Shown in pieces: positions 5,202 through 34,203 of a stretch of 64,000 nucleotides of DNA; position 1 is the stretch's first letter, and each line of letters starts with the position of its first letter. The stretch spans positions 1 through 64,000 of the forward strand of contig JAUHYW010000010.1 of the NCBI GenBank assembly GCA_030426085.1. Direction: 5' to 3'. Under the pieces are notes generated by a model. The model saw nothing but the letters and a program-made list of their open reading frames with translations, was not told the origin of the DNA and ran no database searches. The DNA is from a bacterium (GTDB lineage Bacteria > Myxococcota_A > Bradymonadia > UBA7976 > UBA1532). The position numbers and the translations under genes are program-made.

Positions 5202-5217
5202 TGGCACGGCCGTTGCT
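5202..5217 (+). promoter_or_regulatory. Sigma54 (-24/-12) promoter
   Basis: TGGCACGGCCGTTGCT matches the consensus TGGCACG-N4-TTGCW at every defined base. The expected start site is about 5228, giving a leader of roughly 28 bases before the protease ATG at 5256. An NtrC-family activator would be required; one with an intact GAFTGA loop is encoded at 25319-26644, though nothing proves it acts here. A GTTACC half-site lies at 5103-5108. Confidence 0.8.
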
Positions 5218-14759: not shown

Positions 14760-14787
14760 GCACGTCCCGCGGCGCAGCGCCAGCGGG

Positions 14788-16287
14788 TCAGGCCGCGGGC
14801 GGGGCGTCCGGGCGGCCGCCGGGGTCGAGGCCCAGGCTGCGCACCTCGCGCCAGGTGCCGATGACCGCGCTGGCGGCGCCGGCGAAGATCGCGACCGAGA
14901 ACACCATCGGCGGCGGCGCTTCGAAGACGGCCACGCCGATCGATCCCAGCGCGAAGGCGAGGGCGGTCATGAAGGCCCACCGGGCGACGAGGAACCCGGC
15001 CAGCAGCGCCAGGATGCTCATCGCCATCAGGTCGACGCTGAGCATGGCCCGCGCGTCGATGCCATTCAGGATCGCCGCCACCCGGGTGATGATCGGCGAC
15101 GCCAGCGTCAACAGCAGCCACGTCGAGAGGCGCCGGGTGTGGGCGGTCGCGCCGATGCGCCGCCGGAAGACCCACGCCAGCCCGAAGACGACGGCGACCC
15201 CGGCCCCGTCGGTGACGATCAGCTCGGCGCTGGTGGGCATGCCGTCCAGCGTGGCCCAGACGATCACCGCCAGCGACGCGGCCATCACCAGCGCCAGCCC
15301 GGTGAAGAAGGTCAGTCGGCTGCGGGCGCCCACGCTGCGGTCGTCGCGCTCGTCCCACCCGATGGCGTCGAGCAGGGCGTGCATCGAGGGCCATCGGTCC
15401 TCCGGCGCGGCCGAGAGCCCCCGGTCGATCGCGCCGAGGATGGCTGTCGGCGCGCCGCAGCGCGAGGCCTCGATCGCCCCGGCCTCGATCCGGGCCAGCC
15501 GCGCCGTCAGCCCGTCCCCGCCGAAGGGCGGGATCCCGTTCAGCGCCTCGAAGAGCGCCACCGCGAAGGCGAACTGGTCACAGGCCGGGCCCACCGCCTC
15601 GCCCCGGATCTGCTCCGGCGCCATGTAGGCCGGCGTGCCGAGCACGCTGCCGGCGAGGGTCAGCGGCGAGGCGAGTAGATCGTCGCGGCCCGGTGGGTCT
15701 GCGGCTGGCGTCGGATCGGGGGCGTCGTGCTCGGCCCGGGCGAGGCCGAAGTCGATGATGCGCGGCCGGCCGTCGTGGCCCACCAGGACGTTCTGGGGCT
15801 TGAAGTCGCGGTGCATCATGCCCGCGTCGTGGGCCGCGGCCAGCCCGGCGCCGACCCGGGCGTACATCGCCAGCACCGCGGGCCACGGCCGGGGGTCGGC
15901 CTGCCACTCGGCCAGGGTGACCCCGTCGACGTACTCCATCGCGATCCAGGTCTGCCCCCGGTGGGCGCCGACGTCGTAGATCTGGGCCACGTTGGGGTGC
16001 GACAGCCGGGCCATCGCGTGGGCCTCGCGGCGGATGCGGCGGGACTGCTCGGGGCGCTCGACGCCGCTGCGCAGCAGCTTGAGCGCGACCCGCCGATCGA
16101 GGTTGGGATCGTAGGCCGCATACACCCGGCCCATGCCGCCCTCGCCGAGCAGGTCGAGGACGTGGAACCGCCCGATGCGCTCCGGCGCGAGCGGGGCCGC
16201 GGGTGGGGCCTCGTCGGGATCGAGCGTCGGCGCGGTCGGATCGGCCCCCCGCGCGTCGAGGGTGTCGGCGATCGCGCTCCGCCCCAT
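14788..16287 (-). CDS. Membrane Ser/Thr protein kinase (Hanks type)
   Basis: 499 residues. The kinase domain spans about 38-310, with the glycine loop GEGGMG (48-53), ATP-binding Lys70, catalytic HRD (159-161) followed by FKPQN, DFG (179-181) and the APEQ motif, so all key residues for activity are present. The C-terminal 170 residues contain about six hydrophobic helices instead of an extracellular sensor, an uncommon layout that suggests it senses a membrane-embedded signal. It is separated by 3 bp from the PQQ dehydrogenase gene and lies upstream of the M23 and helical-protein genes, possible substrates. Confidence 0.92.
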   Translation of the reverse strand: MGRSAIADTLDARGADPTAPTLDPDEAPPAAPLAPERIGRFHVLDLLGEGGMGRVYAAYDPNLDRRVALKLLRSGVERPEQSRRIRREAHAMARLSHPNVAQIYDVGAHRGQTWIAMEYVDGVTLAEWQADPRPWPAVLAMYARVGAGLAAAHDAGMMHRDFKPQNVLVGHDGRPRIIDFGLARAEHDAPDPTPAADPPGRDDLLASPLTLAGSVLGTPAYMAPEQIRGEAVGPACDQFAFAVALFEALNGIPPFGGDGLTARLARIEAGAIEASRCGAPTAILGAIDRGLSAAPEDRWPSMHALLDAIGWDERDDRSVGARSRLTFFTGLALVMAASLAVIVWATLDGMPTSAELIVTDGAGVAVVFGLAWVFRRRIGATAHTRRLSTWLLLTLASPIITRVAAILNGIDARAMLSVDLMAMSILALLAGFLVARWAFMTALAFALGSIGVAVFEAPPPMVFSVAIFAGAASAVIGTWREVRSLGLDPGGRPDAPPAA

Positions 16288-16290
16288 CGC

Positions 16291-17601
16291 TCAGCGGGCG
16301 GCGACGAGCTGGTAGATGGCACCCCCGCCGAAGTCCACCGCGAGCACCTCGCCGTCGGCGGTGCGCCCGAAGGCCGACACCAGGATCCCCCAGCGCCCCA
16401 GGCTGTGCACCTGCGCGATGCCATCCGGCTTCGCGCCGGGCGTCGCCGAGGTCGGCGGCAGGTCCAGGGCCCACAAGCGACCCGAGAGGAAGTCACCGAA
16501 GACGTAGCGCCCCTTCAATTCCGGGATGCCATCGCCGGTGTAGACGTGGCCGCCGGTGATCGAGCCGCCGTCCTGCCGCCCGTACTCGTAGATCGGATCG
16601 ATCAAGCCCTCGGTGGGGCAGTCGTCGACCTCGGGCGGGAAGCAGTGGGCCGCCTCCCGGATCGCCCAGCCGGCGTTCTGCCCGGCGCCGACGAGGGTGA
16701 CCTCTTCGTACATGTCCTGCCCGACGTCGCCGATGACCAGCCGCCCGTCGGGCGCGAAGCTGTAGCGCCATGGGTTGCGCAGGCCCCAGGCCCAGATCTC
16801 GGGCCGCGGGGTGCCGTCGGGGTCGGACGGCGCCCCGGCGAACGGGTTGTCGGGCGGGATGGCGTAGCCGCGCTCGGCGGTGGCGCCGTCCACGTCGAGC
16901 CGCAGCATGGCGCCCAGCAGGGTCGTGCGATCCTGGCCGTGCCCGTGGGGATCGTCGGCGAAGCCGCCGTCGCCCAGGCCCACGTAGAGCATGCCGTCGG
17001 GGCCGAAGGCGAGGTCGCCCGCGTTGTGGTTCTGGTAGGGCTGCTCGATCTCGATCACGGTCTGCTCGAGCGTCGGCTTCGCCTGCCGCAGGTCGCTGCC
17101 GGCGGGGATCGCGAAGCGCATGACCCGGGTGACGTCGCCCCTGTCTGCAGCGACGGTGGCGTTGACGAAGAAGCGCCCGTTCTCGGCGAAGCGGGGGTGG
17201 AAGACGATGCCCAGCAGGCCCTGCTCGCCGGCCACGAGCACCGGCACGTCGACGAGCACGCCCCGCGTCTGCGTCTCGGCCCGGTCGAACCACCACGCCT
17301 TGCCCGCCTTCTCGAGCACGACGAGCAGCCCCGGCTCGCCGGGCACCGGCACCACCGCCACCGGCTGCTCGAAGCCGTCGGCCAGCTTGCCCAGCCCGAT
17401 CTCGATGCGGGGGCGGTCGGCGTCGAGGCCGTCGAAGATGGCGGTCTTGTCGCCGGCGTCGGCCGGCGGGTGGTACTCGGGGGTGAGCACATCGATCGCC
17501 AGCCGGCGCAGCGCGCTGCCGCCGAACGGGGTCAGCGCGAAGAGCACGATCGCGACGAGGACGAGGGCGACGGCGAGGACGATCTTGAGCGGGCGGGACA
17601 C
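16291..17601 (-). CDS. PQQ-dependent aldose (glucose/sorbosone-type) dehydrogenase
   Basis: 436 residues. One N-terminal transmembrane anchor (about 5-25) leads to a six-bladed propeller of the soluble aldose-sugar dehydrogenase family: EQGLLGIVFHP, YQNHNAGDLAFGPDGMLYVGLGDGG, WGLRNPWRYSF, IGDVGQDMYEEV, GGHVYTG and YVFGDFLSGRLWAL. The His and Arg/Asn residues that bind PQQ and calcium in this family lie in these segments. It would oxidise sugars in the periplasm and pass electrons to the respiratory chain. No PQQ synthesis genes are in the window. It lies between phaB and a kinase gene on the same strand. Confidence 0.88.
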   Translation of the reverse strand: MSRPLKIVLAVALVLVAIVLFALTPFGGSALRRLAIDVLTPEYHPPADAGDKTAIFDGLDADRPRIEIGLGKLADGFEQPVAVVPVPGEPGLLVVLEKAGKAWWFDRAETQTRGVLVDVPVLVAGEQGLLGIVFHPRFAENGRFFVNATVAADRGDVTRVMRFAIPAGSDLRQAKPTLEQTVIEIEQPYQNHNAGDLAFGPDGMLYVGLGDGGFADDPHGHGQDRTTLLGAMLRLDVDGATAERGYAIPPDNPFAGAPSDPDGTPRPEIWAWGLRNPWRYSFAPDGRLVIGDVGQDMYEEVTLVGAGQNAGWAIREAAHCFPPEVDDCPTEGLIDPIYEYGRQDGGSITGGHVYTGDGIPELKGRYVFGDFLSGRLWALDLPPTSATPGAKPDGIAQVHSLGRWGILVSAFGRTADGEVLAVDFGGGAIYQLVAAR

Positions 17602-17652
17602 GGCGGCTCCGGGCGCGGTGGCAGGCGCCCCAGCATACGCCGCCGGCGCCGC

Positions 17653-18375
17653 TCAGTACATGTGCTGGCCGCCGTTGATCGACAGGGTCGACCCGGTGAT
17701 GAAGCCGGCGTCGTCGGCCACCAGGAACCGCACCCCCCGCGCGATCTCGCTGGCCTGCCCCAGCCGCTGGACCGGGATGCGGGCGATGATCTTGTCCAGG
17801 ACCTTCTCCGGCACCTGGCGCACCATGTCGGAGTCGATATAGCCCGGCGCGATGGCGTTGACGGTGACCCCGAACCGGGCCCCCTCCTGGGCCAGCGCCT
17901 TGGTGAAGCCGTGGATGCCCGACTTGGCCGCGGCGTAGTTCACCTGTCCGTACTGCCCGGCCTGCCCGTTGATCGAGCCCACGTTGACGATGCGCCCGAA
18001 GCCGCGGCCCCGCATGTCGGGGTAGGTCACCCGGCACATGTTGAAGCACGAGGTCAGGTTGGTCTGAATGACCGCCTGCCACGCCTCGAGCGGCATCTTG
18101 TGCAGCGTGCCGTCGCGGGTGATGCCGGCGTTGTTGACCAGCACGTCGACCGGCCCGAGGGCCTCGGCGACCTCGGCGACCCCCGCCGCGCAGGCGTCGA
18201 AGTCCCCGACGTCCCAGCGGAAGGTCGGGATGCCGGTCTCGGCTTCGAACGCGCCCGCCTGGCGGGTGTCGCTGCGATAGGTCGCCGCGACGATGTAGCC
18301 CGCCTCGGCGAGCGCGGTGCTGATGGCGGCCCCGATGCCACGGGTGCCGCCGGTGACGATGGCGACTCGGCTCAT
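17653..18375 (-). CDS. phaB: Acetoacetyl-CoA reductase
   Basis: 240 residues; reduces acetoacetyl-CoA to (R)-3-hydroxybutyryl-CoA with NADPH, the second step of polyhydroxybutyrate synthesis. Short-chain dehydrogenase features: TGGTRGIG nucleotide loop, NNAGITRD, Ser-Tyr-Lys catalytic set around SINGQAGQYGQVNYAAAK, and the PhaB-typical stretch SGIHGFTKALAQEG. Ends with the usual STLSINGGQHMY. It follows the thiolase gene by 48 bp. No PHA synthase (phaC) is in the window, so the polymerase must be elsewhere; a FabG-like role is less likely given the diagnostic PhaB segments. Confidence 0.93.
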   Translation of the reverse strand: MSRVAIVTGGTRGIGAAISTALAEAGYIVAATYRSDTRQAGAFEAETGIPTFRWDVGDFDACAAGVAEVAEALGPVDVLVNNAGITRDGTLHKMPLEAWQAVIQTNLTSCFNMCRVTYPDMRGRGFGRIVNVGSINGQAGQYGQVNYAAAKSGIHGFTKALAQEGARFGVTVNAIAPGYIDSDMVRQVPEKVLDKIIARIPVQRLGQASEIARGVRFLVADDAGFITGSTLSINGGQHMY

Positions 18376-18423
18376 GTCATCCTCCCTCGTATCTGATGTG
18401 CGGGCGCGGACCGGCGCCCGGGT

Positions 18424-19602
<1,179 letters not shown>

Positions 19603-19633
19603 GGCATGTCTCCCGGACGGCGCCGCGCGCCGA

Positions 19634-21595
<1,962 letters not shown>

Positions 21596-21616
21596 GGCAT
21601 GCGCTCCGGGGTCGGG

Positions 21617-21636
21617 GTGATGGTGCGCACCATCAC
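21617..21636. promoter_or_regulatory. Perfect 20-bp palindrome between porin and acs
   Basis: GTGATGGTGCGCACCATCAC is an exact palindrome overlapping the porin stop codon (21633-21635) and ending 22 bp before the acs start. It could be an operator for acs, an attenuating hairpin between the two genes, or a processing site that separates porin from acs mRNA. Confidence 0.6.
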
Positions 21637-22937
21637 AGGAAGAACTGGGTCTGGAAGATGACTTCGCTGGCCGATCCGTCGGCGGACGGCTTCTCGGCGC
21701 CGTCCTCGAGCTGGAAGATCGGGCGCAGGCGGTAGTGCAGGGTCCACTTGGCGCTGTGGCCGAAGAGGTAGGCGTTGAGGCCGACGTCGATGGTGTTGGC
21801 CGCCCCGTCGAGCGCCTCGAACTGCCCCATGGTGAAGGCGGCGTACGGCTGGAGCTGCGTCCGACCGATGGTGAACGGCAGCAGGTAGCCCGCCTGGGCG
21901 TAGAGCAGCGTGCCGGTGCCCAGCGTGGGGTAGGCGTTGCCCGCCCCGTTGGCGCTGCTGCCCGAGCCGCTGTCGCCGATGTTCATGATGCCGATGTTGC
22001 GCAGGTTGTCGGGGCCGAAGTCGTACAGGTAGAACGCCGCGTAGGCGGTCAGCGCCTGGTCGTCGCCGAGCGGCAGGTCGAGGAAGACGTCGACCGCGGC
22101 GGCGAGCAGGTCGGCGTCCACCTTCTCACCCTCGCCGTCGTCGCCGATCTCGAGGTGGCTGATGCCATCCGGCTGGAAGTGGGCCCCGGCGCCGATGTTG
22201 AAGACCCGCTTCTTGCCGAGGTAGGTCCCGGTCGTATAGGGCAGCAGGTTCGACTCGGCGTCCCAGAACTCGTACTTGAGGTAGCCCCCGAAGGCCAGCC
22301 CGCTCGCCGCGGGGTTGTAGTCGCCCCGGGGGGTGACCTCGGCGTCGACCGCGAAGGGATCGACGACCGCCAGCCGGTAGTCGAGGCCGCCGACCTTGCC
22401 CTTCGCGTAGAAGCCGTACTGCCGGGCGAACTGGTCGGTGCGCTCGATGGTCGGCCAGTTGTGGATCGGCGCGTCGAGGGCCAGGAAGTTGAGCGTGCTC
22501 GCCGCCGACATCCGGCTGGGGCCCATGTGATAGATGAGGCCCCCGCCGAGGGCGAGGACCTCGGGCACCGCCTCGTACTCGACCCAGGCGTCGTGCATGA
22601 AGAGCTGGGGCTTCTTGCCGCCGGCGAAGGTCTGGTTGTCGAACCCGAAGTGGGTCACGATCGTCAGCCGGGGGGCGATCTTGCCCAGCACGAGGAAGCG
22701 GCTGCGGCGCATGCCGATGTCGAAGTGATCGTCGGTCTCTTCGCCGCGGATGGTCGTGTCGGGGTTCAGCTCGGTGTACCGGGCCCAGAGCTGGTGCCAG
22801 GTGATGAACCGGACCCACTGTTTGCCGTCTTCGCTCAGGTCGAACTTGACCGGCTGGTAGCTCGTCTCGGCGGCGGCTGGACCAGCGAGGGTGGCTGCGA
22901 GAGCCAGAGCGGCGGCGATCGAACGGACGGATGGCAT
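21633..22937 (-). CDS. Outer-membrane porin, OprO/OprP-like
   Basis: 434 residues with a clear signal peptide (ALALAATLAGPAAA, cleavage before ETSYQP). The mature part alternates polar and aromatic residues, with repeated strand-like segments such as RFLVLGKIAPRLTIVTHFGF and LQPYAAFTMGQFEAL, and ends in QTQFFL, a typical membrane-inserting C-terminus. This is the pattern of phosphate-selective-type porins. Its position between the symporter and acs suggests that it passes acetate or other small carboxylates through the outer membrane. Substrate specificity cannot be read from the sequence. Confidence 0.8.
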   Translation of the reverse strand: MPSVRSIAAALALAATLAGPAAAETSYQPVKFDLSEDGKQWVRFITWHQLWARYTELNPDTTIRGEETDDHFDIGMRRSRFLVLGKIAPRLTIVTHFGFDNQTFAGGKKPQLFMHDAWVEYEAVPEVLALGGGLIYHMGPSRMSAASTLNFLALDAPIHNWPTIERTDQFARQYGFYAKGKVGGLDYRLAVVDPFAVDAEVTPRGDYNPAASGLAFGGYLKYEFWDAESNLLPYTTGTYLGKKRVFNIGAGAHFQPDGISHLEIGDDGEGEKVDADLLAAAVDVFLDLPLGDDQALTAYAAFYLYDFGPDNLRNIGIMNIGDSGSGSSANGAGNAYPTLGTGTLLYAQAGYLLPFTIGRTQLQPYAAFTMGQFEALDGAANTIDVGLNAYLFGHSAKWTLHYRLRPIFQLEDGAEKPSADGSASEVIFQTQFFL

Positions 22938-23065
22938 GGCGGTCCCTCCCTCGCGGCGTGCGCACCGCGGGTGTGTCGGCCGTTGCCGGCCGATGGCATG
23001 GCGAGTTGCTGGCGGTCTCGGTCCGGCCGGGCGGCGGTGCCCGGCCGGCGCGTGGGCTCAGGGGC

Positions 23066-24850
23066 TCAGTGGGTGTGGGCTTCCCCGGCGCCCCGGGGCA
23101 CCCGGATCTCTTCGACCATCGCCTGCACCTCCTCCGGCGGCGGCGGGAAGAACCGGCCCAGCCCCAGCGCGACGGCGAAGTTGATCAGCATGCCGAAGGT
23201 GCCGATGCCCTCCGGCGAGATGCCGAACCACCACTGCTCGGCCGAGCCACCGAGGAACTTGAAGTAGACGATGTAGCCCCCGGTGAAGAGCAGCCCGGCG
23301 AGCATGCCGGCGACGACGCCCTCCCGGTTGGCCCGCTTGGAGAAGATGCCAAGGATGATGGCCGGGAAGAAGGTCGAGGCGGCCAGACCGAAGGCGAAGG
23401 CGACCACCTGGGCCACGAAGCCGGGCGGGTTGATGCCGAAGTAGCCGGCGATGCACACCGCGAACGCGGCGGCGATGCGGGCGGCGAGCAGCTCCTTCTT
23501 CTCCGAGATGTCGGGCATCAGGGTGCGCTTGAGCAGGTCGTGGCTGACCGCGGTGGAGACCACCAGCAGCAGCCCGGCGGCGGTGGACAGCGCCGCGGCG
23601 AGGGCCCCGGCGGCGACCAGCGCGATGATCCAGTTGGGCAGCCCGGCGATCTCGGGGTTGGCCAGGACCATGATGTCCCGGTCGACGTACAGCTCGTTCT
23701 CGTTCTCGGTGGGCGGGTTGAGCACCATGCGCTGCCCCACCGGCCCCCGCTCGTCCCCGAAGTCGGGCTTGCCGACGAAGGCCGCCCCGGCGACGTACTG
23801 CACCTTGCCGTCGGCGTTCTTGTCGACCCAGGCCAGCAGCCCGCTGTCTTCGTACTTTCGGAACCACTCGGGCATCGCCGCCCGATCGGCCGTGCCGGCG
23901 TCGGCGGCGTACGGGGTGTCGGTCACCGTGTCGAGCAGGTTGGCCCGGGCGAAGGCGGCCACCGCGGGGGCGGTCGTGTAGAGGATGGCGATGCACAGCA
24001 GCGCGTAGCCGGCCGAGATGCGGGCGTCGCGCACCTTGGGCACGGTGTAGAACCGGATGATGACGTGGGGCAGGCCGGCGGTGCCCACCATCAGCGCCAT
24101 GGTGATGCAGAAGACGTCCAGCATCGACTTGGAGCCGTCGGTGTACTCGGCGAAGCCCAGCTCGGCGTGCAGCCCGTTGAGCTTCTGCAGGAGCGAGACC
24201 CCCGGCTCGACCTCGCCCCCGAACCCGAGCTGGGGGATGGGGTTGTCGGTGACCATCAGCGAGATGAAGATCGCCGGCACCATGTAGGCGAAGATGAGCA
24301 CGACATACTGGGCGACCTGGGTGTAGGTGATGCCTTTCATGCCACCCAGCACCGCATAGAAGAACACCACCGCCATGCCGATGAGCACGCCGATGGTGAT
24401 GTCGACCTCGAGGAAGCGGCTGAAGACGACCCCGACGCCTCGCATCTGGCCCGCGACGTAGGTGAACGAGACGAAGATGGCGCACACGACGGCCACCAGC
24501 CGGGCGGTCTGGGAGTAATAGCGGTCACCCACGAAGTCGGGCACGGTGAACTTGCCGAACTTGCGCAGGTAGGGGGCGAGCAGCAGCGCGAGCAGCACGT
24601 AGCCCCCGGTCCAGCCCATGAGATAGACCGATCCGTCGTATCCCATGAACGAGATGAGGCCGGCCATCGAGATGAACGAGGCGGCCGACATCCAGTCGGC
24701 GCCGGTGGCCATGCCGTTGGCCAGGGGCGAGACCCCGCCCCCGGCGACGTAGAAGTCCTTGGTCGAGGACGCCCGGGACCAGATGGCGATGCCGATGTAC
24801 AGGGCGAAGGTCAGCCCGACGATGATGAAGGTCCAGGTCTGAACACTCAT
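23066..24850 (-). CDS. Na+/solute symporter, ActP-like (VC_2705 subfamily)
   Basis: 594 residues, SSS family, about 13 membrane helices. Typical segments: DFYVAGGGVSPLANGMATGADWMSAASF near the N-terminus, FTVPDFVGDRY, GGMKGITYTQVAQY and a late LAAALSTAAGLLLVVSTAV sodium-site helix. A soluble insertion of about 90 residues (roughly 310-400), absent from E. coli ActP, marks the subfamily that pairs with a small DUF4212 subunit, encoded here just upstream with an ATGA overlap. Presumed to import acetate or related short carboxylates; the downstream acs and pha genes support acetate. Confidence 0.92.
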   Translation of the reverse strand: MSVQTWTFIIVGLTFALYIGIAIWSRASSTKDFYVAGGGVSPLANGMATGADWMSAASFISMAGLISFMGYDGSVYLMGWTGGYVLLALLLAPYLRKFGKFTVPDFVGDRYYSQTARLVAVVCAIFVSFTYVAGQMRGVGVVFSRFLEVDITIGVLIGMAVVFFYAVLGGMKGITYTQVAQYVVLIFAYMVPAIFISLMVTDNPIPQLGFGGEVEPGVSLLQKLNGLHAELGFAEYTDGSKSMLDVFCITMALMVGTAGLPHVIIRFYTVPKVRDARISAGYALLCIAILYTTAPAVAAFARANLLDTVTDTPYAADAGTADRAAMPEWFRKYEDSGLLAWVDKNADGKVQYVAGAAFVGKPDFGDERGPVGQRMVLNPPTENENELYVDRDIMVLANPEIAGLPNWIIALVAAGALAAALSTAAGLLLVVSTAVSHDLLKRTLMPDISEKKELLAARIAAAFAVCIAGYFGINPPGFVAQVVAFAFGLAASTFFPAIILGIFSKRANREGVVAGMLAGLLFTGGYIVYFKFLGGSAEQWWFGISPEGIGTFGMLINFAVALGLGRFFPPPPEEVQAMVEEIRVPRGAGEAHTH

Positions 24851-25155
24851 TTCTCATCCACCCCGTGCTGCGCGTCGAGGCGGTTCATGAGAACCACGTA
24901 GACGAAGATCAGCGCCACGAACACATAGATGCTGCCTTGCTGCGCGAACCAGAACCCCAGCGGGAAGCCCGTCCAGGGGATGGTGACCGCGTTGAGCTGC
25001 TCGACGAACACGATGCCACACAGGTATGACACCGTGAACCAGATCCCGAGCAGGATCGCGAGGTAGCGCAGGTTCGCCTTCCAGTAGGCTTGCCGGTTCG
25101 TGGACGGATCGGGGGCGTGCGCGCCCTCGCCGTCCGGCGGGGTCGGATCGCTCAT
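24847..25155 (-). CDS. DUF4212 small subunit of Na+/solute symporter
   Basis: 102 residues with two membrane helices (about 30-50 and 70-92) and the family signature YWKANLRYLAILLGIWF near residue 24. Proteins of this family are encoded next to VC_2705-type symporters and are thought to be their small subunit. The stop overlaps the symporter start as ATGA. GGAG lies a few bases before its ATG. It is the first gene after a sigma54 promoter, so it should head the acetate-use transcript. Confidence 0.92.
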   Translation of the reverse strand: MSDPTPPDGEGAHAPDPSTNRQAYWKANLRYLAILLGIWFTVSYLCGIVFVEQLNAVTIPWTGFPLGFWFAQQGSIYVFVALIFVYVVLMNRLDAQHGVDEK

Positions 25156-25194
25156 CGGGGGTTCTCCTCACCGTGTCGTGCATCGGTCTGTATC

Positions 25195-25209
25195 GCAACC
25201 CCCGTGCCA
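25195..25209 (-). promoter_or_regulatory. Sigma54 (-24/-12) promoter of the symporter/acetate genes
   Basis: Read on the minus strand, TGGCAC (25209-25204), five G residues, TTGC (25198-25195): exact match to TGGCACG-N4-TTGC. Expected transcription start near 25183, 28 bases before the DUF4212 ATG. The gene for an NtrC-type activator with GAFTGA ends 110 bp upstream, and two palindromes lie between the two. Confidence 0.85.
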
Positions 25210-25261
25210 GCCGCGCGCGGGCGGTGGCTTTACGGGATCCGACGGTCGGGGCGCCCCGGGT

Positions 25262-25312
25262 GTTACCGATGGTAGCGGGTGGGGTGTGGGGGTGGGTGTT
25301 ACCGGCGGTAAC
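25262..25312. promoter_or_regulatory. Two palindromic activator sites (putative upstream activating sequences)
   Basis: Site 1, 25262-25276: GTTACC-GAT-GGTAGC (one mismatch). Site 2, 25298-25312: GTTACC-GGC-GGTAAC (perfect). Centres are 36 bp apart, and they lie about 53 and 89 bp upstream of the sigma54 -24 element, the normal position for NtrC-family activators. Both carry TGTTAC, similar to half-sites I recall for CbrB. The neighbouring activator is the obvious candidate ligand. Confidence 0.7.
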
Positions 25313-25318
25313 GCGGCT

Positions 25319-26644
25319 TCACTTCGGCCGGGGGATGCCCATCTTCTTGCGGCGCTCCCACAGCGACTTGCGGCTGATGCCCAGCCGGCGGGCGATCTCG
25401 GTCTCGCTCAGCTCGGCCTGGTGACGCAGGACAAAAGCCCGGAAGTAGTCGTCGAGCGACAGGTCGACCGCCGCCCGGGGCGGGCTCGACGGGGGAGCGC
25501 CCGCCTCGAGGCCGAGATCGGCGGGGCCGACCGGCCCCCCGGCGTGCAGGATGACCGCCCGCTCGATGGCGTTCTCGAGCTCGCGCACGTTGCCCGGCCA
25601 ATCGTAGCGCCGGATGGCCCCCGGGGTGTCGTCGGCGAACTCGAGCCCGGGGCGGCCGAGCTTGGCGGCGGCCTTGTCGAGCAGGGTCCGGGCGAGCAGC
25701 TCGACGTCGTCCCCCCGGGCCCGCAGCGGCGGCAGCTCGATCTCGATGACCCGCAGCCGGTAGTACAGGTCGCGGCGGAAGTGCCCCGCCTCGCTCATCG
25801 CCGCGAGGTCGCGGTGGGTGGCGCAGACCACCCGGGTGTCGATGGGCCGGGCCCGGGTCGCCCCCACCGGGCGCACCTCCCCCTCTTGCAGCACCCGGAG
25901 CAGGCGGGCCTGGGCCGGGGCCGGCAGCTCGCCGATCTCGTCGAGGAACAGCGTGCCCCCCGAGGCGGCCTCGAACAGGCCCGCCTGCCGGGTATGGGCC
26001 CCGGTGAACGCGCCCCGCTCGTGCCCGAAGAGCTGGCTCTCGATGAGGCTCTCGGGGATCGACGCGCAGTTGACCGGCACGAACGCCGCCGCCGAGCGGG
26101 GGCTCTGGCGGTGGATCGCCCGCGCGATCAGCTCCTTGCCGGTGCCCGACTCGCCGAGTACGAGCACCGTGGCCGCGGTCGGCGCCGCCCGGGCCACCCG
26201 GTCGAAGGCGACCCGCATCGCCGGGCAGTCGCCGACCATGCCCTCGACGGTGTACTGCCGGTCGACCTCCTGCTGGAGCGCGTCGCTGCGCCGGGCCAGC
26301 GCGCGGCGCTCCAGGGCCCGTTCGAGGGTCACCAGCAGCGCGTCGGGCTCGAAGGGCTTGGTGAGGTAGTCCGCCGCGCCGCGCCGCATCGCGTCCACCG
26401 CCGACTGCACGCTGCCGTGGGCGGTCATCACGACCACCGGGGCCGGGGCCCTCTCGATGAGCACGTCCCCGCTCTCACCGGGCAGGCGCAGATCGGTCAG
26501 GATGAGATCGAAGCCGTCGAGGCCGATGGCTTCGGCGGCCGAGACCTGCTCGACCGCTTCGACCGTGTGGCCGGCCCGGCGCAGCGTGCGCTGGATCTCG
26601 AACCGGATGACGGGCTCGTCCTCGACGACCAGGATGCGGCTCAT
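25319..26644 (-). CDS. NtrC-type sigma54 response regulator, CbrB-like
   Basis: 441 residues. Receiver domain 1-120 with phospho-acceptor Asp51 (LILTDLRLP) and Lys in YLTKPF; AAA+ domain about 140-370 with Walker A GESGTGKE, the sigma54-contact loop GAFTGA and Walker B LFLDEIGE; C-terminal Fis-type helix-turn-helix ending SRKSLWERRKKMG. All features needed to activate sigma54 promoters are intact. Its ATG overlaps the stop of the sensor kinase. Because the kinase is CbrA-like and the next genes are for acetate uptake and activation, it probably activates the sigma54 promoter just downstream. Confidence 0.93.
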   Translation of the reverse strand: MSRILVVEDEPVIRFEIQRTLRRAGHTVEAVEQVSAAEAIGLDGFDLILTDLRLPGESGDVLIERAPAPVVVMTAHGSVQSAVDAMRRGAADYLTKPFEPDALLVTLERALERRALARRSDALQQEVDRQYTVEGMVGDCPAMRVAFDRVARAAPTAATVLVLGESGTGKELIARAIHRQSPRSAAAFVPVNCASIPESLIESQLFGHERGAFTGAHTRQAGLFEAASGGTLFLDEIGELPAPAQARLLRVLQEGEVRPVGATRARPIDTRVVCATHRDLAAMSEAGHFRRDLYYRLRVIEIELPPLRARGDDVELLARTLLDKAAAKLGRPGLEFADDTPGAIRRYDWPGNVRELENAIERAVILHAGGPVGPADLGLEAGAPPSSPPRAAVDLSLDDYFRAFVLRHQAELSETEIARRLGISRKSLWERRKKMGIPRPK

Positions 26645-29541
26645 GGCTCGTCCTCGGGTGGCGGGGGTGGCTGGGATGGCAGGGGCGGATCGGACGGCGG
26701 GGGCGGCCCGGACGACACCCGCGGCAGCCGGACCCGGAAGGTCGTCGGCAGGTCGGCGAGCAGCTCGAGGTGGCCCCGGTGCTCGTCGACGATGCGGTGG
26801 CACACGGCCAGCCCCAGGCCGGTGCCCTCGCCGGGCGGCTTGCTGGTGAAGAAGGGCTCGAAGATGCGCTCGACCGCGTCGGGCGACACGCCCGGGCCGT
26901 CGTCGGTGATCCGGATCTCGGCGAAGGCCCCGTCGGCGCCTGCGGCCAGCGCGATCTCGACCCACGAGCCGGCGGCGTCGCGGGCGTTGGCCAGCAGGTT
27001 GACCAGCACCTGCCGCAGCGCCTGGCGGTCGGCCTCGATGGTGAGCGGATCGGCGATCGATACCCGCCACTCGAGCGCCCGAGCCCGCTTGCCGAGCCGC
27101 ACCAGCTTCACCGCGTCCTCGACGAGCGCGGCCAGATCGACCGCGCCGCGGGCCGGGCCGTCCCCTTCCCGGCTGAAGCCGAGCAGCGTGCGCACGATGG
27201 CGTCGATGCGCTTCGCCTCGCCGATGACCAGATCCAACCGCTCGGCGGCGTCGTCGGCCTCGGGCTCGAGGCGCAGGTTGCGGGCGACCATCAAGATGCC
27301 GGTCAGCGGGTTGCGGATCTCGTGGGCCACGCCGGCCGCGAGCCGGCCGATCGACGCCAACCGATCCTGGTGGGCCGCCTGGGCCCGGAGCTGGCGGCGG
27401 GCGGTGATGTCTTCGACCACCAGCACCGCCGCCGCCTCTTCGGGCAGATCCGCGCTGCGCAGCCGCAGGATGCGCGGGCGCCGGCCGCCGAGGGAGCGCT
27501 CGATGAAGCCCGAGCCGTCCCGGACCTCGCGCAGCATGTGGCCCCACGGATCGGGCAGATCGGCCAGCGCGCTGTCGGCCACCGCGTCGCCGTCGAGGCC
27601 GGTGATGCCGGTCAGGGCCCGGTTCCACACCACGACCCGCCCGTCGTCGTCGAGCGCGCACACCCCGACCGGCATCTCGTCGAGCACGGTGGCGAGGTAG
27701 CGCTGCACCCGGGCCAGCGCCCGCTGCATGCCCCGGGGCGGGGTGGCCCCGCGGCCCTGCCCGCTGACGAATCGCAGCTCGGCGGCCAGCGCGGCGGGCG
27801 CGTCGCCCCGGCCGACGAGGGCCCGGGCGGCGAGCGGGCCGACGAGCCCCGACAGCGCGCGCTCGACCCGGGCCGAGAGGCGCTGCAGCTCGGCCGGGCG
27901 GCGCTCGTCGGCGGCGATGCCCAGCTCGGTGAGGAAGCGGTCGATCTGGCGCCGGGCGCCCTCGGGCCCCAGCACCACCGCCAGCCGCCGACGCAGCGCG
28001 TCGGGCCCCTGCACCGCGCCCCCCGGCGGGGCGTCGGGATCGCGACAGAAGGTCGCCGCCCGGGCCTCGGCCCGGCGGGGCGGCGCCGTGAGCGAGCCGA
28101 TGGCGAACAGCAGGCTGTTGAGCCCCAGGCTGAGCCCGACGGTCACGCTGCGGTGGTCGACGTCGAGGCCGGCCGCGCGCAGCGCCCCGCCCAGGCTCGG
28201 CCCGCCGAGCTGGGGCAGCGCGGCGTCCAGCAACCAGATCAGGCCCCCACCGCACAGCCCCCATACGAAGCCCCGCCGAGTGGCCCGGGTCCAGAAGAGC
28301 ACCCCGATGATCCCCGGCACGAGCTGGAGCACGGCGGTGAACGAGACGAGCCCCAGATCGGCCAGCGTGCCGGCCCGGGGCGCGAGCAGGTGCACCGCCA
28401 GCCCGGCGAAGACCAGGCCGGCCATCACCAGCCGGCGCAGCGCGGTCAGGCGCTGGTAGATCCAGCCCCGAGCCGGCTGAAGCGGCAGCACGAGGTGGTT
28501 GACCACCATGCCCGACAGCGCCACGGCGCAGACCAGGATCATGGCGCTGGACGCCGAGATGCCGCCGAGGAAGGCGATCGCCCGGACCCCCGGCCGCTCG
28601 GACGCCAGCAGCACGAAGACGTCGGCCGGGGCGCCGACCGGGGCCCGGATCTGGCCGGCCCAATAGATGATCGGCAGCGGCAGGTGCAGCAGCAGCAGCA
28701 GCGTGGGCAGCACCCACATCACATGCCGCAGCCCGGGGTCGTCCCCCCGCTCGACGAAGGCGACGTGAAACTGCCGGGGCAGGAGGAAGGCGGCGACGAA
28801 GGCCAGCACGGTCAGGGGCACCCACGGGCCGTCGACCACCGGTCGATACAGATCGGCCAGCGCCTGCGGGTGGGCCGCGAGCCAGGCGTCGAGGCCGTCG
28901 AGGCCGCCGAAGACGTCGCTCAAAGTCACCGCGCCGACGACGGTGATGGCCAGCACCTTGACCCCCGACTCCACCGCAAGCGCCGCCAGCAGCCCCGGGC
29001 GGTCGGGGCGCGGCTCGGCGTAGCGCGATCCCAGGCCCATGGCGAAGAGGCTGAGCAGGATGGCGAAGGCGGGGCCGGTCCAGCCGTAGGACGCGTCGCC
29101 CAGCCAGCGGGCGGCGTCGGCGATGGCCCGCATCTGCAGCGACAGGTAGGGCAGGAGCCCGGCGACCATGAAGACGGCCACCGCCGCGCCCACCGCCCGA
29201 GACTGATAGCGATAGGCCAGCAGATCCGCCGCGCTCTGGAGCTGGCGGGCGCGCACCACCCGGGCCAGCGGGCGCCACACGAGCGGGATGGCGAGGCACG
29301 ACAGGGCCACCCCCACGCTGATGGCCAGGAAGTTGTAGCCTTCGGTCGCCGCGAAGCCGACCCCGCCGTAGAACGTCCACGAGGTGGCGTAGACCCCCAG
29401 CGCGAGGCCCACGCTGATGGGGTGGCGGGCCAGCCGCCGCAGCCGGGGACACCGCTCGACGACGACCGCGATGAGAGACAGCAGGCCCAGGTACAGGGCG
29501 GCGGCCGCCACCGCCAGCACGCCGCCGGGCATGTCACTCAT
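26641..29541 (-). CDS. Symporter-fused sensor histidine kinase, CbrA/CrbS-like
   Basis: 966 residues. About 13 N-terminal membrane helices form an SLC5/SSS-type transporter-like domain (to about 490), followed by a STAC-like linker (about 510-600), a PAS domain (EMPVGVCALDDDGRVVVWN), HisKA with AHEIRNPL, and HATPase with NLLANARDAAG, DDGPGV and GEGTGLGLAV. Known relatives, CbrA and CrbS, control carbon use and the acetate switch. A Pro-rich tail of about 25 residues ends the protein. It overlaps the small gene upstream by 8 bp and the regulator downstream by 4 bp. Confidence 0.93.
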   Translation of the reverse strand: MSDMPGGVLAVAAAALYLGLLSLIAVVVERCPRLRRLARHPISVGLALGVYATSWTFYGGVGFAATEGYNFLAISVGVALSCLAIPLVWRPLARVVRARQLQSAADLLAYRYQSRAVGAAVAVFMVAGLLPYLSLQMRAIADAARWLGDASYGWTGPAFAILLSLFAMGLGSRYAEPRPDRPGLLAALAVESGVKVLAITVVGAVTLSDVFGGLDGLDAWLAAHPQALADLYRPVVDGPWVPLTVLAFVAAFLLPRQFHVAFVERGDDPGLRHVMWVLPTLLLLLHLPLPIIYWAGQIRAPVGAPADVFVLLASERPGVRAIAFLGGISASSAMILVCAVALSGMVVNHLVLPLQPARGWIYQRLTALRRLVMAGLVFAGLAVHLLAPRAGTLADLGLVSFTAVLQLVPGIIGVLFWTRATRRGFVWGLCGGGLIWLLDAALPQLGGPSLGGALRAAGLDVDHRSVTVGLSLGLNSLLFAIGSLTAPPRRAEARAATFCRDPDAPPGGAVQGPDALRRRLAVVLGPEGARRQIDRFLTELGIAADERRPAELQRLSARVERALSGLVGPLAARALVGRGDAPAALAAELRFVSGQGRGATPPRGMQRALARVQRYLATVLDEMPVGVCALDDDGRVVVWNRALTGITGLDGDAVADSALADLPDPWGHMLREVRDGSGFIERSLGGRRPRILRLRSADLPEEAAAVLVVEDITARRQLRAQAAHQDRLASIGRLAAGVAHEIRNPLTGILMVARNLRLEPEADDAAERLDLVIGEAKRIDAIVRTLLGFSREGDGPARGAVDLAALVEDAVKLVRLGKRARALEWRVSIADPLTIEADRQALRQVLVNLLANARDAAGSWVEIALAAGADGAFAEIRITDDGPGVSPDAVERIFEPFFTSKPPGEGTGLGLAVCHRIVDEHRGHLELLADLPTTFRVRLPRVSSGPPPPSDPPLPSQPPPPPEDEP

Positions 29542-29749
29542 CGTCGTGGACCGGGCCCCGGCGGCGCCCGGCTTCCCGCGCGGCCAGCCACGCCCCGCCC
29601 ACGCACAGCCCGCCCCACAGCGCGAACGGCAGCCACCACGGGGCTTCGGGCCGGGCCCAGATCACCCGGGCCGGCGAGGCGACGAGCGCCACCGCCACCG
29701 CCAGCACCACCGCGGCCCGGGCCCGCTGATCGGGATCTGGGGATGCCAT
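29534..29749 (-). CDS. Small two-helix membrane protein, CbrX-like position
   Basis: 71 residues with two hydrophobic helices (about 12-28 and 38-57) and a charged C-terminus. Its stop lies inside the kinase start region (8-bp overlap), so kinase translation is likely coupled to it. In Pseudomonas a similarly placed small ORF, cbrX, overlaps cbrA. Homology cannot be judged by eye at this length; position, size and membrane character fit. It could be a coupling leader or a real subunit of the transporter-like sensor. Confidence 0.65.
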   Translation of the reverse strand: MASPDPDQRARAAVVLAVAVALVASPARVIWARPEAPWWLPFALWGGLCVGGAWLAAREAGRRRGPVHDDE

Positions 29750-29838
29750 CCCGCTGACGCTCCTCCCGTGCCGGGCGTGTATCTCGCGGTCACGCTACAC
29801 GATGCCCCCCGCGGCCGGCCAGTGGGGGCCGCCGCCGA

Positions 29839-29869
29839 GTTCGACACACGAACGCCATATAGATGTAAT
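29839..29869 (+). promoter_or_regulatory. Candidate promoter with overlapping inverted repeat, AT-rich divergent region
   Basis: A short AT-rich island (about 29850-29885) stands out. TTCGAC (29840-29845), 18 bp, TGTAAT (29864-29869) is a plausible -35/-10 pair for the collagen-like gene. The inverted repeat GTTCG-ACACA-CGAAC (29839-29853) covers the -35, so a repressor could act there. The same island could serve the divergent cbrX-like operon. Weak consensus match. Confidence 0.35.
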
Positions 29870-29944
29870 TTTCGACTATGATTGGAATACGCAATCGCGG
29901 CGCCGACCCGCATCCGGCGCCGCGCCCGATCGGTGAGGAGTGCC

Positions 29945-32900
29945 ATGATCCATCCCCTGCCCCCGCGGCGCATGCGCCGGGCGGCCCGCGTCGCGACCGT
30001 GATCGCCGCCGCCCTGCTCGTCGCCCCCACAGCCCATGCGCTGCCCGACCAGATCGTGCAGGAGGGCCTGCTGCTCGACGACGACGGCCGCCCGCTCGAG
30101 GGCGTGGTCCGCGTCCGGGTGGGCCTGTACGCCGAGCCCGACGGCGGCCCCCGCCTCTTCGACGAGGTGCACCCGGCCGTCGAGCTGTTCGAAGGCTACT
30201 ACGCGGTCTTCATCGGCAGCATCGAGCCGCTCGATCCGGCGCTCTTCGCCCGGCCGCAGCTCTACCTGGGGTTGAGCCTGAACAACGGCGCCGAGCTGCG
30301 CCCCCGCACCCCGCTGATGAAGGTGCCGGCGGCGATGCTGGCCGACGTGGCGCTCGACGCGGTGGGTGACATCACCCCCCGGACCGTCTCGATCGCCGGG
30401 GTGGGTCCGGTCATCGACGAGAACGGGCGCTGGGTGGGGGATCCCACCGGCTTGCAGGGGCCCGAGGGCCCGGCCGGGCCAGCGGGACCGGCCGGGCCGC
30501 GCGGGGCACGGGGCCCGGCCGGTCAGTCCGGCGGCGACGGCAGCCCCGACACCCCGGCTCAGGTGCGGGACAAGCTGGTGCAGGTCGACGGCGCCGGCTC
30601 GGGCGTCGACGCCGATCTGGTCGATGGCCTGCACGCCGACCGCTTCATGCGCATCGACCGCCACACCGGCACCATCGGCAACCTCGAGACCGCCCAGACC
30701 CTCAGCGCGGCCCGCATCCGGCTGACCGCGCCGGGCGCCGGCTCGACCATCGTCTGGCCGGCCGACGGCGGGGCCCCTGATCCCAACGCGGCGGGCATCG
30801 CCCTCAACAACCGCAACGTGGTGGGGGTCAACGGCATGGCGTTCGCCGATCCCGGCCCCGACGGGGTGCTCACCTGGGCCGGCACCGCCGCCCGGGTCTA
30901 TGTCGCCAGGCTCGACGACACCGACGGCGACGGCCTGCTGCGGCTGCGCAACGACGAAGGCATCAGCCTCGAAGACACCGTGCGCATCACCGGAAACCTC
31001 ACGATGGAGGCCGGGGCGAGCATCAGCCTGCGCGACCGGCACGTCACCGGGGTCGAGCACTTCGCCTTCGCCGATCCGGGGCCCGACGGCCGCATCTCGT
31101 GGGGTGGATCCCAAGCCCAGGTCTTCGTCGCGCCGCTCGACGGGGCCAACAGCGACGGCTGGCTGCGGCTGCTGAACGATGAAGGCATCAGCCTCGAGAG
31201 CCCGGTGCGGGCCACCGATGACATGACGGTCTCCGGGCGCCTGGGCGTCGGCACGACGGCGCCGACGGCCAAAGTCATGGTGCAGGACGACTCGGCGGCC
31301 GAGACCGGGGTCGTCGTGCGCAACCATCGCGCGGGCGGTGACACCCGGCCCTTCGTGCGGCTCGAGGCCCTGACGTCGGCCAACCAGGGCGTCTGGGGCA
31401 TGATCCGGGCCCTGGCCGGTGAGCGGGCCGGCGGCGCGGAGGGGTCGAACCACGGCGGCTTGCAGCTCGTGGTGAGCACCGGGGGCAACGGCACGCCCAA
31501 CCCGGCGATGACCATCCAGCACGACGGGGACGTGGGCCTGGGCACCGAGGATCCCCGCGACGCGCTGCACGTCGCCCGCCCGGCCCACATCAACGCCATC
31601 CTCGACCGCACCGACAGCGACGACCACCTGACGATGGTGGTGGGCAACAGCGGCTCGGGGCTGCGCTACAGCGACTCCAACTCGTTCTTCATCGGCACCC
31701 AGCCCTACGCCGATCGGGACGACAACGGCGGCGGCACCTCGCGCCTGCGCATCACCCCCGACGGCAACATCGGCGTCGGCACCGACACCCCCCACCACCG
31801 GCTGGACGTGCGGGGCGTCATCCGGGGCCCGGCGATGACATCGAACCGCACGCCCCAGGGCTTCGAGCACAACTTGCTGTTCAACGCCCACCTCCGGTTC
31901 AGGGTCAGCCAGCAGGGCCCGGCCACGTTCGATCCGGCGGCGTTGTTCGACGGCAACCTCCAGCCGTACTACCCGGGGGGCACGCCCACCGCGAACAACC
32001 CGCAGGTCATCGTGATCGAGGGCCTGCCGGCCCATCACACCCAGGCCGGCGCCTGGATCGGCTGGACCACCCGCTACTGGCCCGCCCGCCGGTGGAAGAT
32101 GGAGGGCTATGACACCGGCAACCAGCGGTGGGATGTCTTCGCCGACTTCGAGAACACCGACTTCACCGGCAGCGACTTCATGGTCAAGGTGCCCCACGCC
32201 AGCTACAACGCGCTGCGCTGGACCCTCTACGCCGGCACCGGCCAGAACGGTCGGGTGGGCCTCTCGGAGCTGTTCTTCATCCACCCCGAGGCGACGACGC
32301 CCTACGCCGGGCTGCTCACCGGGGAGAACACCGACTGCCATCGGCCGAGCATCAGCGGCGGCGATGACATCGGGGCAGTGCTCGCGCCCTACCTCAGCGC
32401 CTATCGCTGTGTGTACTTGCAGCTCTCGGCCAATACGACCTATCGCTGGGAGACCCCGATCTCGGTCGGCGCGCGCAAGGATCTGACGATCAACGGCGCC
32501 GGCTGGAGCAACGGCGCGGGCAACATCACCAGCGTCATCGAGATGAACGGCGCCCGCACCGTCAACCGCGACGGCAACATCTATCGCTGCGTCAACCGGG
32601 TGGTGACCGGCGACTTCGCGACGTTCCGCATGCGCGGCATCCGGGTGCGCGAGCGCATCGCGGACAACCGCGCGCTCTACCCCTCGTCGACGTGCCAGGC
32701 GCTGTTCAACGTGGGCGAGATGTCGGTGGTCGAGCTGAGCCAGAGCCGGTACGAGGTCACCGAGGATCTGGTGAACTTCTACGGCCACAAGTACGGCCGG
32801 GCCAAGTTCGGCCACACCTTCGTCGACCGCAGCAACAACAGCCCGCGCAACGTCTACATCGTCAAGGCCGACTCGGGGTGGAACTTCGCCGGGCACGGGG

Positions 32901-32980
32901 GCGTGGTCTCCCGCTCGCACACCCACCTCGGGGGCGGGGTGAGCTACCACGACTCGAACCGCATCGAGTACCTGCCATGA
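29945..32980 (+). CDS. Exported collagen-like, tail-fibre-like surface protein
   Basis: 1011 residues from ATG 29945 (GAGGAG four bases upstream). A twin-Arg-rich N-terminus and hydrophobic segment (VATVIAAALLVAPTAHA) form a signal peptide. After a domain of about 140 residues come nine Gly-X-Y triplets (GPEGPAGPAGPAGPRGARG), then duplicated blocks sharing FADPGPDG and RLLNDEGISLE, and repeats such as GVGTDTPHHRLDVRG typical of phage-tail or adhesin fibres. The C-terminal 300 residues, with two Cys-bearing stretches, are unrecognised. Probably a trimeric surface fibre. Its stop overlaps the TSP3 lipoprotein start (ATGA). Confidence 0.75.
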   Translation: MIHPLPPRRMRRAARVATVIAAALLVAPTAHALPDQIVQEGLLLDDDGRPLEGVVRVRVGLYAEPDGGPRLFDEVHPAVELFEGYYAVFIGSIEPLDPALFARPQLYLGLSLNNGAELRPRTPLMKVPAAMLADVALDAVGDITPRTVSIAGVGPVIDENGRWVGDPTGLQGPEGPAGPAGPAGPRGARGPAGQSGGDGSPDTPAQVRDKLVQVDGAGSGVDADLVDGLHADRFMRIDRHTGTIGNLETAQTLSAARIRLTAPGAGSTIVWPADGGAPDPNAAGIALNNRNVVGVNGMAFADPGPDGVLTWAGTAARVYVARLDDTDGDGLLRLRNDEGISLEDTVRITGNLTMEAGASISLRDRHVTGVEHFAFADPGPDGRISWGGSQAQVFVAPLDGANSDGWLRLLNDEGISLESPVRATDDMTVSGRLGVGTTAPTAKVMVQDDSAAETGVVVRNHRAGGDTRPFVRLEALTSANQGVWGMIRALAGERAGGAEGSNHGGLQLVVSTGGNGTPNPAMTIQHDGDVGLGTEDPRDALHVARPAHINAILDRTDSDDHLTMVVGNSGSGLRYSDSNSFFIGTQPYADRDDNGGGTSRLRITPDGNIGVGTDTPHHRLDVRGVIRGPAMTSNRTPQGFEHNLLFNAHLRFRVSQQGPATFDPAALFDGNLQPYYPGGTPTANNPQVIVIEGLPAHHTQAGAWIGWTTRYWPARRWKMEGYDTGNQRWDVFADFENTDFTGSDFMVKVPHASYNALRWTLYAGTGQNGRVGLSELFFIHPEATTPYAGLLTGENTDCHRPSISGGDDIGAVLAPYLSAYRCVYLQLSANTTYRWETPISVGARKDLTINGAGWSNGAGNITSVIEMNGARTVNRDGNIYRCVNRVVTGDFATFRMRGIRVRERIADNRALYPSSTCQALFNVGEMSVVELSQSRYEVTEDLVNFYGHKYGRAKFGHTFVDRSNNSPRNVYIVKADSGWNFAGHGGVVSRSHTHLGGGVSYHDSNRIEYLP

Positions 32981-34203
32981 ATCGAATGGGTATCCGCATG
33001 ACTCCGAGATGGCTCTACACCGCAACCCTGGCCGCGTCGCTGACGCTGATGGGGGTGGCCTGTGACGACGACATGACGATCGACGCCGACGGCGGCGGGG
33101 CCGGCGGCGAGGGCGCGATCGGCGGGCCGGGCGGCACGAGTGGCGCCGGCGGCATGGGTGGCGCCGGCGCGAGCGCCGGCATGGGTGGCGGCGGTGACAT
33201 GCCCGATATGGGCGACGCCGGGCCGGACGCCGTGATCGTGACCGAGGATCGCGACGGGGACGGGGTCGCCGATCAGATCGACAACTGCCCCGACGAGCCC
33301 AACCCCGATCAGGCCGACGCCGACGACGACGGCCTCGGCGACGCCTGCGACACCCCGCCCCCCGGGCCCGACATGATGCCCCCGCCCCCGCCCGACGGCG
33401 ACGAGGACGGCGTGCCCGACGGCATGGACAACTGCCCGGCGGTTTTCAACCCCGATCAGGCCGACGCCGACGGCGACGGCGTCGGCGACGCCTGCGCCCC
33501 GCCTGAGCCCGACGCGGGCCCCACGGTGGGTGACGCCGACGAGGACGACGTGCCCGACGATCGGGACAACTGCCCCAACGCCTTCAACCCCGATCAGACC
33601 GACAGCGACGGCGACGGCCGGGGCGACATCTGCGACGTCTCGCTCGACATGGGGCCGCCGCCCGACGGCGACCTCGACGGGGATGGCGTCTCGGACATGA
33701 TCGACAACTGCCCCGCCGAGGCCAACCCGCAGCAGGGCGACGTCGACAACGACGGCCTCGGCGATGCGTGCGACAACTGCCCCGAGCAGGGCAACCCCAT
33801 CCAGCGGGACACCGACGAGGATGACATCGGCGACGTCTGCGACATGTGCCCCGACAACCCCGACCCCGAGTGCGGCATGCCCGGCCCCGACATGGGCCCG
33901 CCGATCGATCAGGACGGGGACGGGATCGACGACGCGCAGGACAACTGCCCGCTGCTGTTCAACCCCGAGCAGGAGGACGGCGACGGCAACGGCATCGGCG
34001 ACGCCTGCGAGATGGTGATGGGCGACGACCGGGACGGCGACGGGGTGCTCAACTTCCGCGACAACTGCCCCGACGTCGCCAACCCGGACCAGTTCGACCT
34101 CGACGGCGATCAGATCGGCGACGCGTGCGACCCCTGCCCCGAGGAGCCGTTCGATCCGGCGGTGCCGTGCATGGTGGGCGACATCCCCGACGCGGGGCCG
34201 TGA
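32977..34203 (+). CDS. Lipoprotein with thrombospondin type-3 calcium repeats
   Basis: 408 residues. Signal peptide with a lipobox-like end (LMGVAC), then a Gly/Ala/Met-rich linker (about 40-75). From about 85 to the end there are roughly eight acidic DxDxDGxxDxxDNCPxxxNPDQxDxDxDGxGDxC units, the thrombospondin type-3 calcium-binding pattern with paired cysteines, separated by Pro-rich spacers. Such rods bind many calcium ions and stiffen cell-surface proteins. ATGs at 32986 and 32998 are alternatives to the coupled start at 32977. Translational coupling suggests partnership with the collagen-like fibre. Confidence 0.85.
   Translation: MNRMGIRMTPRWLYTATLAASLTLMGVACDDDMTIDADGGGAGGEGAIGGPGGTSGAGGMGGAGASAGMGGGGDMPDMGDAGPDAVIVTEDRDGDGVADQIDNCPDEPNPDQADADDDGLGDACDTPPPGPDMMPPPPPDGDEDGVPDGMDNCPAVFNPDQADADGDGVGDACAPPEPDAGPTVGDADEDDVPDDRDNCPNAFNPDQTDSDGDGRGDICDVSLDMGPPPDGDLDGDGVSDMIDNCPAEANPQQGDVDNDGLGDACDNCPEQGNPIQRDTDEDDIGDVCDMCPDNPDPECGMPGPDMGPPIDQDGDGIDDAQDNCPLLFNPEQEDGDGNGIGDACEMVMGDDRDGDGVLNFRDNCPDVANPDQFDLDGDQIGDACDPCPEEPFDPAVPCMVGDIPDAGP

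Follow-up and report, generated by a model that had tools for sequence, protein, structure and literature searches.

Organization of the locus

The window analysed here, a stretch of 64,000 nucleotides from a bacterium of the class Bradymonadia (Myxococcota_A), carries on its minus strand a transporter-like sensor kinase, an NtrC-type response regulator and a set of genes predicted to take up and activate a short monocarboxylic acid (Table 1). The regulator and the first gene of the putative operon are separated by an intergenic gap of 163 bp, between the end of the activator stop codon at 25319 and the DUF4212 start codon at 25155. This gap contains a −24/−12 element of the sigma-54 type and two palindromes.

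Table 1. Features of the kinase/regulator locus and the adjoining operon (positions in the window)
Feature	Position	Strand	Basis or remark
Acetoacetyl-CoA reductase, probable operon member	17653–18375	−	TIGR01829, 340.6 bits (cut-off 302.1)
Acetyl-CoA C-acetyltransferase (thiolase), probable operon member	18424–19602	−	TIGR01930, 459.9 bits (cut-off 240.55)
Acetate-CoA ligase (AcsA)	19634–21595	−	TIGR02188, 927.2 bits (cut-off 724.95)
Outer-membrane porin-like protein	21633–22937	−	weak NF040900 match below cut-off; homologues in the same operon of relatives
VC_2705-family sodium/solute symporter, large subunit	23066–24850	−	TIGR03648, 851.6 bits (cut-off 320.75)
DUF4212 / symporter small subunit, first operon gene	24847–25155	−	PF13937, E 3.9e-33; TIGR03647
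Sigma-54 −24/−12 element TGGCACGGGGGTTGC	25195–25209	−	exact match; position after activator gene conserved
Proximal enhancer-like palindrome GTTACCGATGGTAGC	25262–25276		one mismatch to GTTAC-N5-GTAAC; centre 60 bp upstream of promoter element
Distal enhancer-like palindrome GTTACCGGCGGTAAC	25298–25312		perfect GTTAC-N5-GTAAC; centre 96 bp upstream of promoter element
NtrC-type response regulator	25319–26644	−	Pfam Response_reg, Sigma54_activat, AAA_lid_14; orthologue alignment
CbrA-type sensor	26641–29541	−	SLC5/STAC region, PAS, HisKA, HATPase_c; PDB 10ED match and Pfam

The start codon of the regulator gene overlaps the stop codon of the kinase gene. The regulator consists of a receiver, an AAA+ sigma-54 interaction domain and a helix-turn-helix labelled Fis-like by eye, and is 56–59% identical to the regulators of four relatives. 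The GAFTGA motif that the sequence-only reading had attributed to this activator lies at residues 211–216 and is invariant in 5/5 orthologues, as is aspartate D51, which we take to be the phosphoacceptor. Residues 13–576 of the kinase match PDB 10ED (E 5.4e-104) and are followed by PAS, HisKA and HATPase domains; the Pfam SSF model stayed below threshold on the kinase. The STAC assignment comes solely from alignment with 10ED, which a preprint identifies as the SLC5-STAC portion of CbrA from Pseudomonas (PMC13022988). No C-terminal receiver (Response_reg) was detected in the kinase by Pfam search.

The operon substrate is most likely acetate, and the thiolase and acetoacetyl-CoA reductase could possibly provide a route from acetate to 3-hydroxybutyryl-CoA. 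At two related loci, the gene directly upstream of the kinase gene, in the same orientation, encodes an extra acyl-CoA synthetase that shares 37% identity with the acetate ligase (L034 5590–7476, L035 10407–12347).

The probable sigma-54 promoter element

On the minus strand, the element reads TGGCAC-GGGGG-TTGC (25209 to 25195), including the GG-N10-GC core of sigma-54 promoters, and the C of its −12 part lies 40 bases from the first ATG base of DUF4212. The exact match, the gap length and the distance to DUF4212 proposed in the sequence-only reading are thus borne out by the coordinates. Transcription is expected to start near 25183, 12 bp past the −12 element. RpoN is encoded elsewhere in the same genome (Sigma54_DBD, E 1.1e-65).

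The expectation that fewer than one exact TGGCAC-N5-TTGC would occur in the window was also correct: the mean was 0.08 in 100 dinucleotide shuffles, none of which reached the two exact matches observed. The second match (5202–5216, plus strand), unmentioned in that reading, sits 40 bp before an ORF (5256–6356) that by eye encodes a secreted trypsin-like protease, and a search near it allowing one mismatch gave no GTTACC-N3-GGTARC palindrome. Across the 10.1-Mb genome, 17 exact matches were counted versus one for the motif read backwards. Matches with one mismatch, in contrast, were at chance level in the window (3 observed versus 2.68 expected), and the weight therefore rests on the exact match and its context. 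The one-mismatch count is what would be expected if the element were a chance match in G+C-rich DNA; the excess of exact matches in window and genome and the conservation of the context across related loci nonetheless make this explanation exceedingly improbable.

Palindromic sites in the gap

The two palindromes, each 15 bp long and overlooked in the earlier reading, are centred roughly 86 and 122 bp before the predicted transcription start. Four strand-wise palindrome matches were observed versus 0.07 expected. The genome holds seven places with at most one mismatch to the palindrome (both strands counted once), two of them in the gap, and the perfect palindrome is unique to 25298–25312. A further regulon in this genome is not claimed on the basis of the five other one-mismatch places, because the reversed pattern alone gives 17 places per strand. 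The palindromes are best explained as enhancer sites of the neighbouring activator.

Conservation across related loci

Within the phylum, relatives of the transporter part of the kinase were found in 5/282 genomes, the present one included, with at most four candidates scored per genome. In all four other genomes the kinase and regulator adjoin acs, and in two of them DUF4212, symporter and porin do so as well; the contig of the third stops within acs, and the fourth has a symporter of another type. A palindrome and a −24/−12-like site precede the operon in 4/4; the promoter sites of two of these loci (L025, L036) were spotted by eye and then found by script in their twin records (L038, L102).

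A scan of species genomes yielded at least 80 loci, of which the best 80 were kept; their hosts are mainly Myxococcota and non-Pseudomonas Gammaproteobacteria. Among these 80, 64 have the last domain of the regulator on the kinase strand with at least 120 nt after it. A palindrome lies within 700 nt after the activator gene in 42 of the 64, and in 39 it is accompanied by a promoter-like site 30–150 nt downstream, whereas 59 permuted half-sites gave on average 0.51 palindromes and 0.05 with such a site. Other spacer lengths were found in 0–7 loci. The site consensus is YGTTACSNNNSGTAACR. The threshold of 8/10 for a promoter-like site is loose, with sites in 33/64 control stretches of the regulator's own coding DNA; at 9/10, sites remain in 30/64 loci versus none on the other strand and 0–7 at control offsets.

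In 12 of the remaining 25 loci of this set, the pair of palindrome and promoter-like site is found elsewhere. Five loci have other DNA between regulator and operon (L049, L073, L076, L078, L083), and here the pair stands ahead of the porin match by about 211 nt, indicating that it follows the operon; in the Myxococcus xanthus locus (L078), the palindrome and TGGCAGACACGTTGC stand before the porin. Another five (L080, L099, L101, L109, L112) have the pair at a different place, ahead of a related operon or porin. In L056 it lies farther downstream with no recognised gene after it, and in L108 it precedes the kinase only. The pair was absent from the DNA examined in 13 of the 64 loci, including L051, L088 and L105, although acs or porin closely follows the regulator in these three. 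Over whole loci, 53 of the best 80 contain the pair (permuted half-sites, average 1.6, maximum 15), and in 37 of the 80 it lies within 300 nt of the start of an operon-type gene (permuted average 0.05, maximum 1).

In two gammaproteobacterial loci (L080, L100), the site is followed first by a gene that by eye encodes a cyclic-nucleotide/CBS/DUF294-type protein and stands ahead of DUF4212. Further, a palindrome and promoter-like site occur shortly before the kinase gene at L044 120, L079 9812, L101 4684 and L108 6040, which suggests autoregulation of the kinase at these loci.

A kinase tree of the window's kinase and 38 cluster representatives separates four second SLC5 kinases from CbrA and all of these 39 with support of 100, the order near CbrA being left unsettled. 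Possession of the pair fits this tree no more closely than shuffled labels do (106/500 as low). Second, more distant SLC5-type kinases, with 32–33% identity, are encoded downstream of acs in three Ectothiorhodospiraceae loci (L084 19348–21198, L092 19415–21277, L116 19461–21314) and may belong to a CrbS-type system located at this operon.

Spacing and natural controls

Distances from palindrome to promoter cluster near 61, 72, 83 and 94. With loci clustered at 80% (30 distances from 38 clusters), Rayleigh R was 0.64 at 10.5 bp, a value reached in 0/20000 simulations; with clustering at 70% (17 distances), it was 0.62 at 10.5 bp (p 0.00095). A 12-bp period fits about as well at 70% (R 0.70), and the period is thus not sharply fixed. 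Palindromes would also suit an unrelated repressor, with the operon read from a different, non-sigma-54 promoter. Such an arrangement is very unlikely, since the spacing to the −24/−12 element is stepped near one helical turn, as for a looping activator contacting the polymerase, and the half-site equals the TGTTAC/GTAACA half-site of CbrB (PMC6296734).

Seven relatives that have DUF4212 with 500 nt upstream and lack the arrangement served as natural controls, the flanks of six being examined for the kinase and regulator. Two other relatives were excluded: one is truncated by the end of its contig, and in the other (G042) DUF4212 is an internal gene of the operon. The palindrome occurs in 0/7 controls and a weak promoter-like site in 1/7. 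One control is a genome of the same genus; its symporter is 92.6% identical, yet neither a kinase nor a regulator of this type is encoded in the 17 kb examined.

These controls bear on whether a genuine sigma-54 promoter could be served by another activator, with the neighbouring regulator acting mainly elsewhere. Related enhancer-binding proteins share AAA+ domains, a large genome can be expected to hold several of them, and neighbourhood alone is no proof. Against this, the palindrome and promoter-site pair tracks the kinase and regulator across phyla, in adjacent position and over whole loci, the palindrome is missing where the kinase/regulator pair is missing, and no other perfect palindrome is available to the regulator in this genome. 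Service by another activator is therefore improbable, though less so than the repressor.

Proposed mechanism

We are highly confident that the element at 25195–25209 acts as the RpoN promoter for an operon that takes up and activates a short monocarboxylic acid, and that the neighbouring kinase and regulator serve it through the palindromes. The sigma-54 assignment made in the sequence-only reading is supported by the exact −24/−12 element, the adjoining NtrC-type activator gene, the presence of RpoN, the palindromes and the conserved arrangement. In the mechanism we infer from these features, the CbrA-type kinase would phosphorylate the regulator, dimers of which would occupy both palindromes and assemble an active AAA+ ring. 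The GAFTGA motif would then remodel the closed sigma-54 polymerase complex at the promoter element, and transcription from about 25183 would proceed through DUF4212, symporter, porin, acetate-CoA ligase, thiolase and acetoacetyl-CoA reductase. The arrangement is very probably a real nutrient-sensing switch, because many other bacteria carry it next to the same sensor and activator genes.

For a family of SLC5-type sensor kinases outside Pseudomonas, it is now possible to propose the regulator, the motif it would bind and the genes it would control. The arrangement is present in Myxococcus, Corallococcus and Ectothiorhodospira, hosts with named strains in which the motif is testable. In addition, the local version, with one sensor and one operon, would offer a simpler setting than the global CbrAB system for the question of which signal a CbrA-type sensor perceives; the signal triggering CbrA is described as elusive (PMC13022988).

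Comparison with known systems

Tandem palindromes upstream of a −24/−12 element are also seen at NtrC-type enhancers. The dimer site of NtrC has a 17-bp geometry, and its half-site sequence differs from the one found here. Among the titles and abstract openings surveyed, neither a palindromic CbrB-like site nor a sigma-54 acetate operon with such a sensor was described, and a literature search for DUF4212 returned no paper.

CrbS/CrbR (MxtR/ErdR) likewise employs an SLC5/STAC sensor kinase and is reported to control acs and an acetate symporter (PMC5715377, PMC9100948). CrbS, however, is described as a hybrid kinase that ends in a receiver domain, and CrbR as a LuxR-type regulator (PMC9100948), and identity with CrbS/CrbR is ruled out by the receiver-less kinase and the NtrC-type regulator. 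RpuS/RpuR of Sinorhizobium fredii similarly places an SLC5/STAC kinase over a monocarboxylate symporter operon, but RpuS is again described as a hybrid with a C-terminal REC domain, and its target is the pyruvate symporter MctP (PMC9100948).

The closest likeness is to CbrA/CbrB of Pseudomonas and Azotobacter, which share an SLC5/STAC-PAS-HisKA-HATPase sensor without a receiver, an adjoining gene for an NtrC-type sigma-54 regulator, the half-site TGTTAC/GTAACA and a controlled unit beside the regulator gene. In that system crcZ lies directly downstream of cbrB. The order cbrA-cbrB-crcZ is described as conserved (PMC6296734, PMC8871633), which is what places the controlled unit by the regulator gene in CbrAB. 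At the present locus, in contrast, a monocarboxylate operon rather than crcZ lies downstream of the regulator; a Crc-type RNA after the regulator was considered and rejected, as no Rfam match was obtained in positions 14000–34000 of the window or at seven related loci. The host also differs, CbrAB being described as unique to Pseudomonadaceae, as does the site geometry, a compact N5 palindrome here versus the widely spaced, non-palindromic TGTTAC-N12-14-GTAACA-N15-19-GTAACA of CbrB (PMC6296734, PMC8871633). Wide, CbrB-like spacing at related loci was considered and rejected: in a 12-base test the N5 palindrome was present in 25/64 regions, while N12, N13 and N14 were not enriched (0, 2 and 1 of 64).

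Since the half-site and the types of sensor and regulator agree while geometry, target and host differ, the present system would work like CbrAB and is not filed as CbrAB. The promoter itself appears to be of an ordinary kind, opening onto a conserved CbrAB-like variant with palindromic sites, putatively dedicated to monocarboxylate uptake. More tentatively, and with somewhat less than even probability, CbrAB may be one branch of an older, widespread switch of transporter-like sensor and NtrC-type regulator, which originally controlled monocarboxylate uptake locally, by means of palindromic enhancers lying right behind the regulator gene; in Pseudomonas, the downstream unit would have turned into crcZ and the palindrome would have been drawn apart into separated half-sites. 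If true, a local acetate switch became a global carbon regulator in Pseudomonas.
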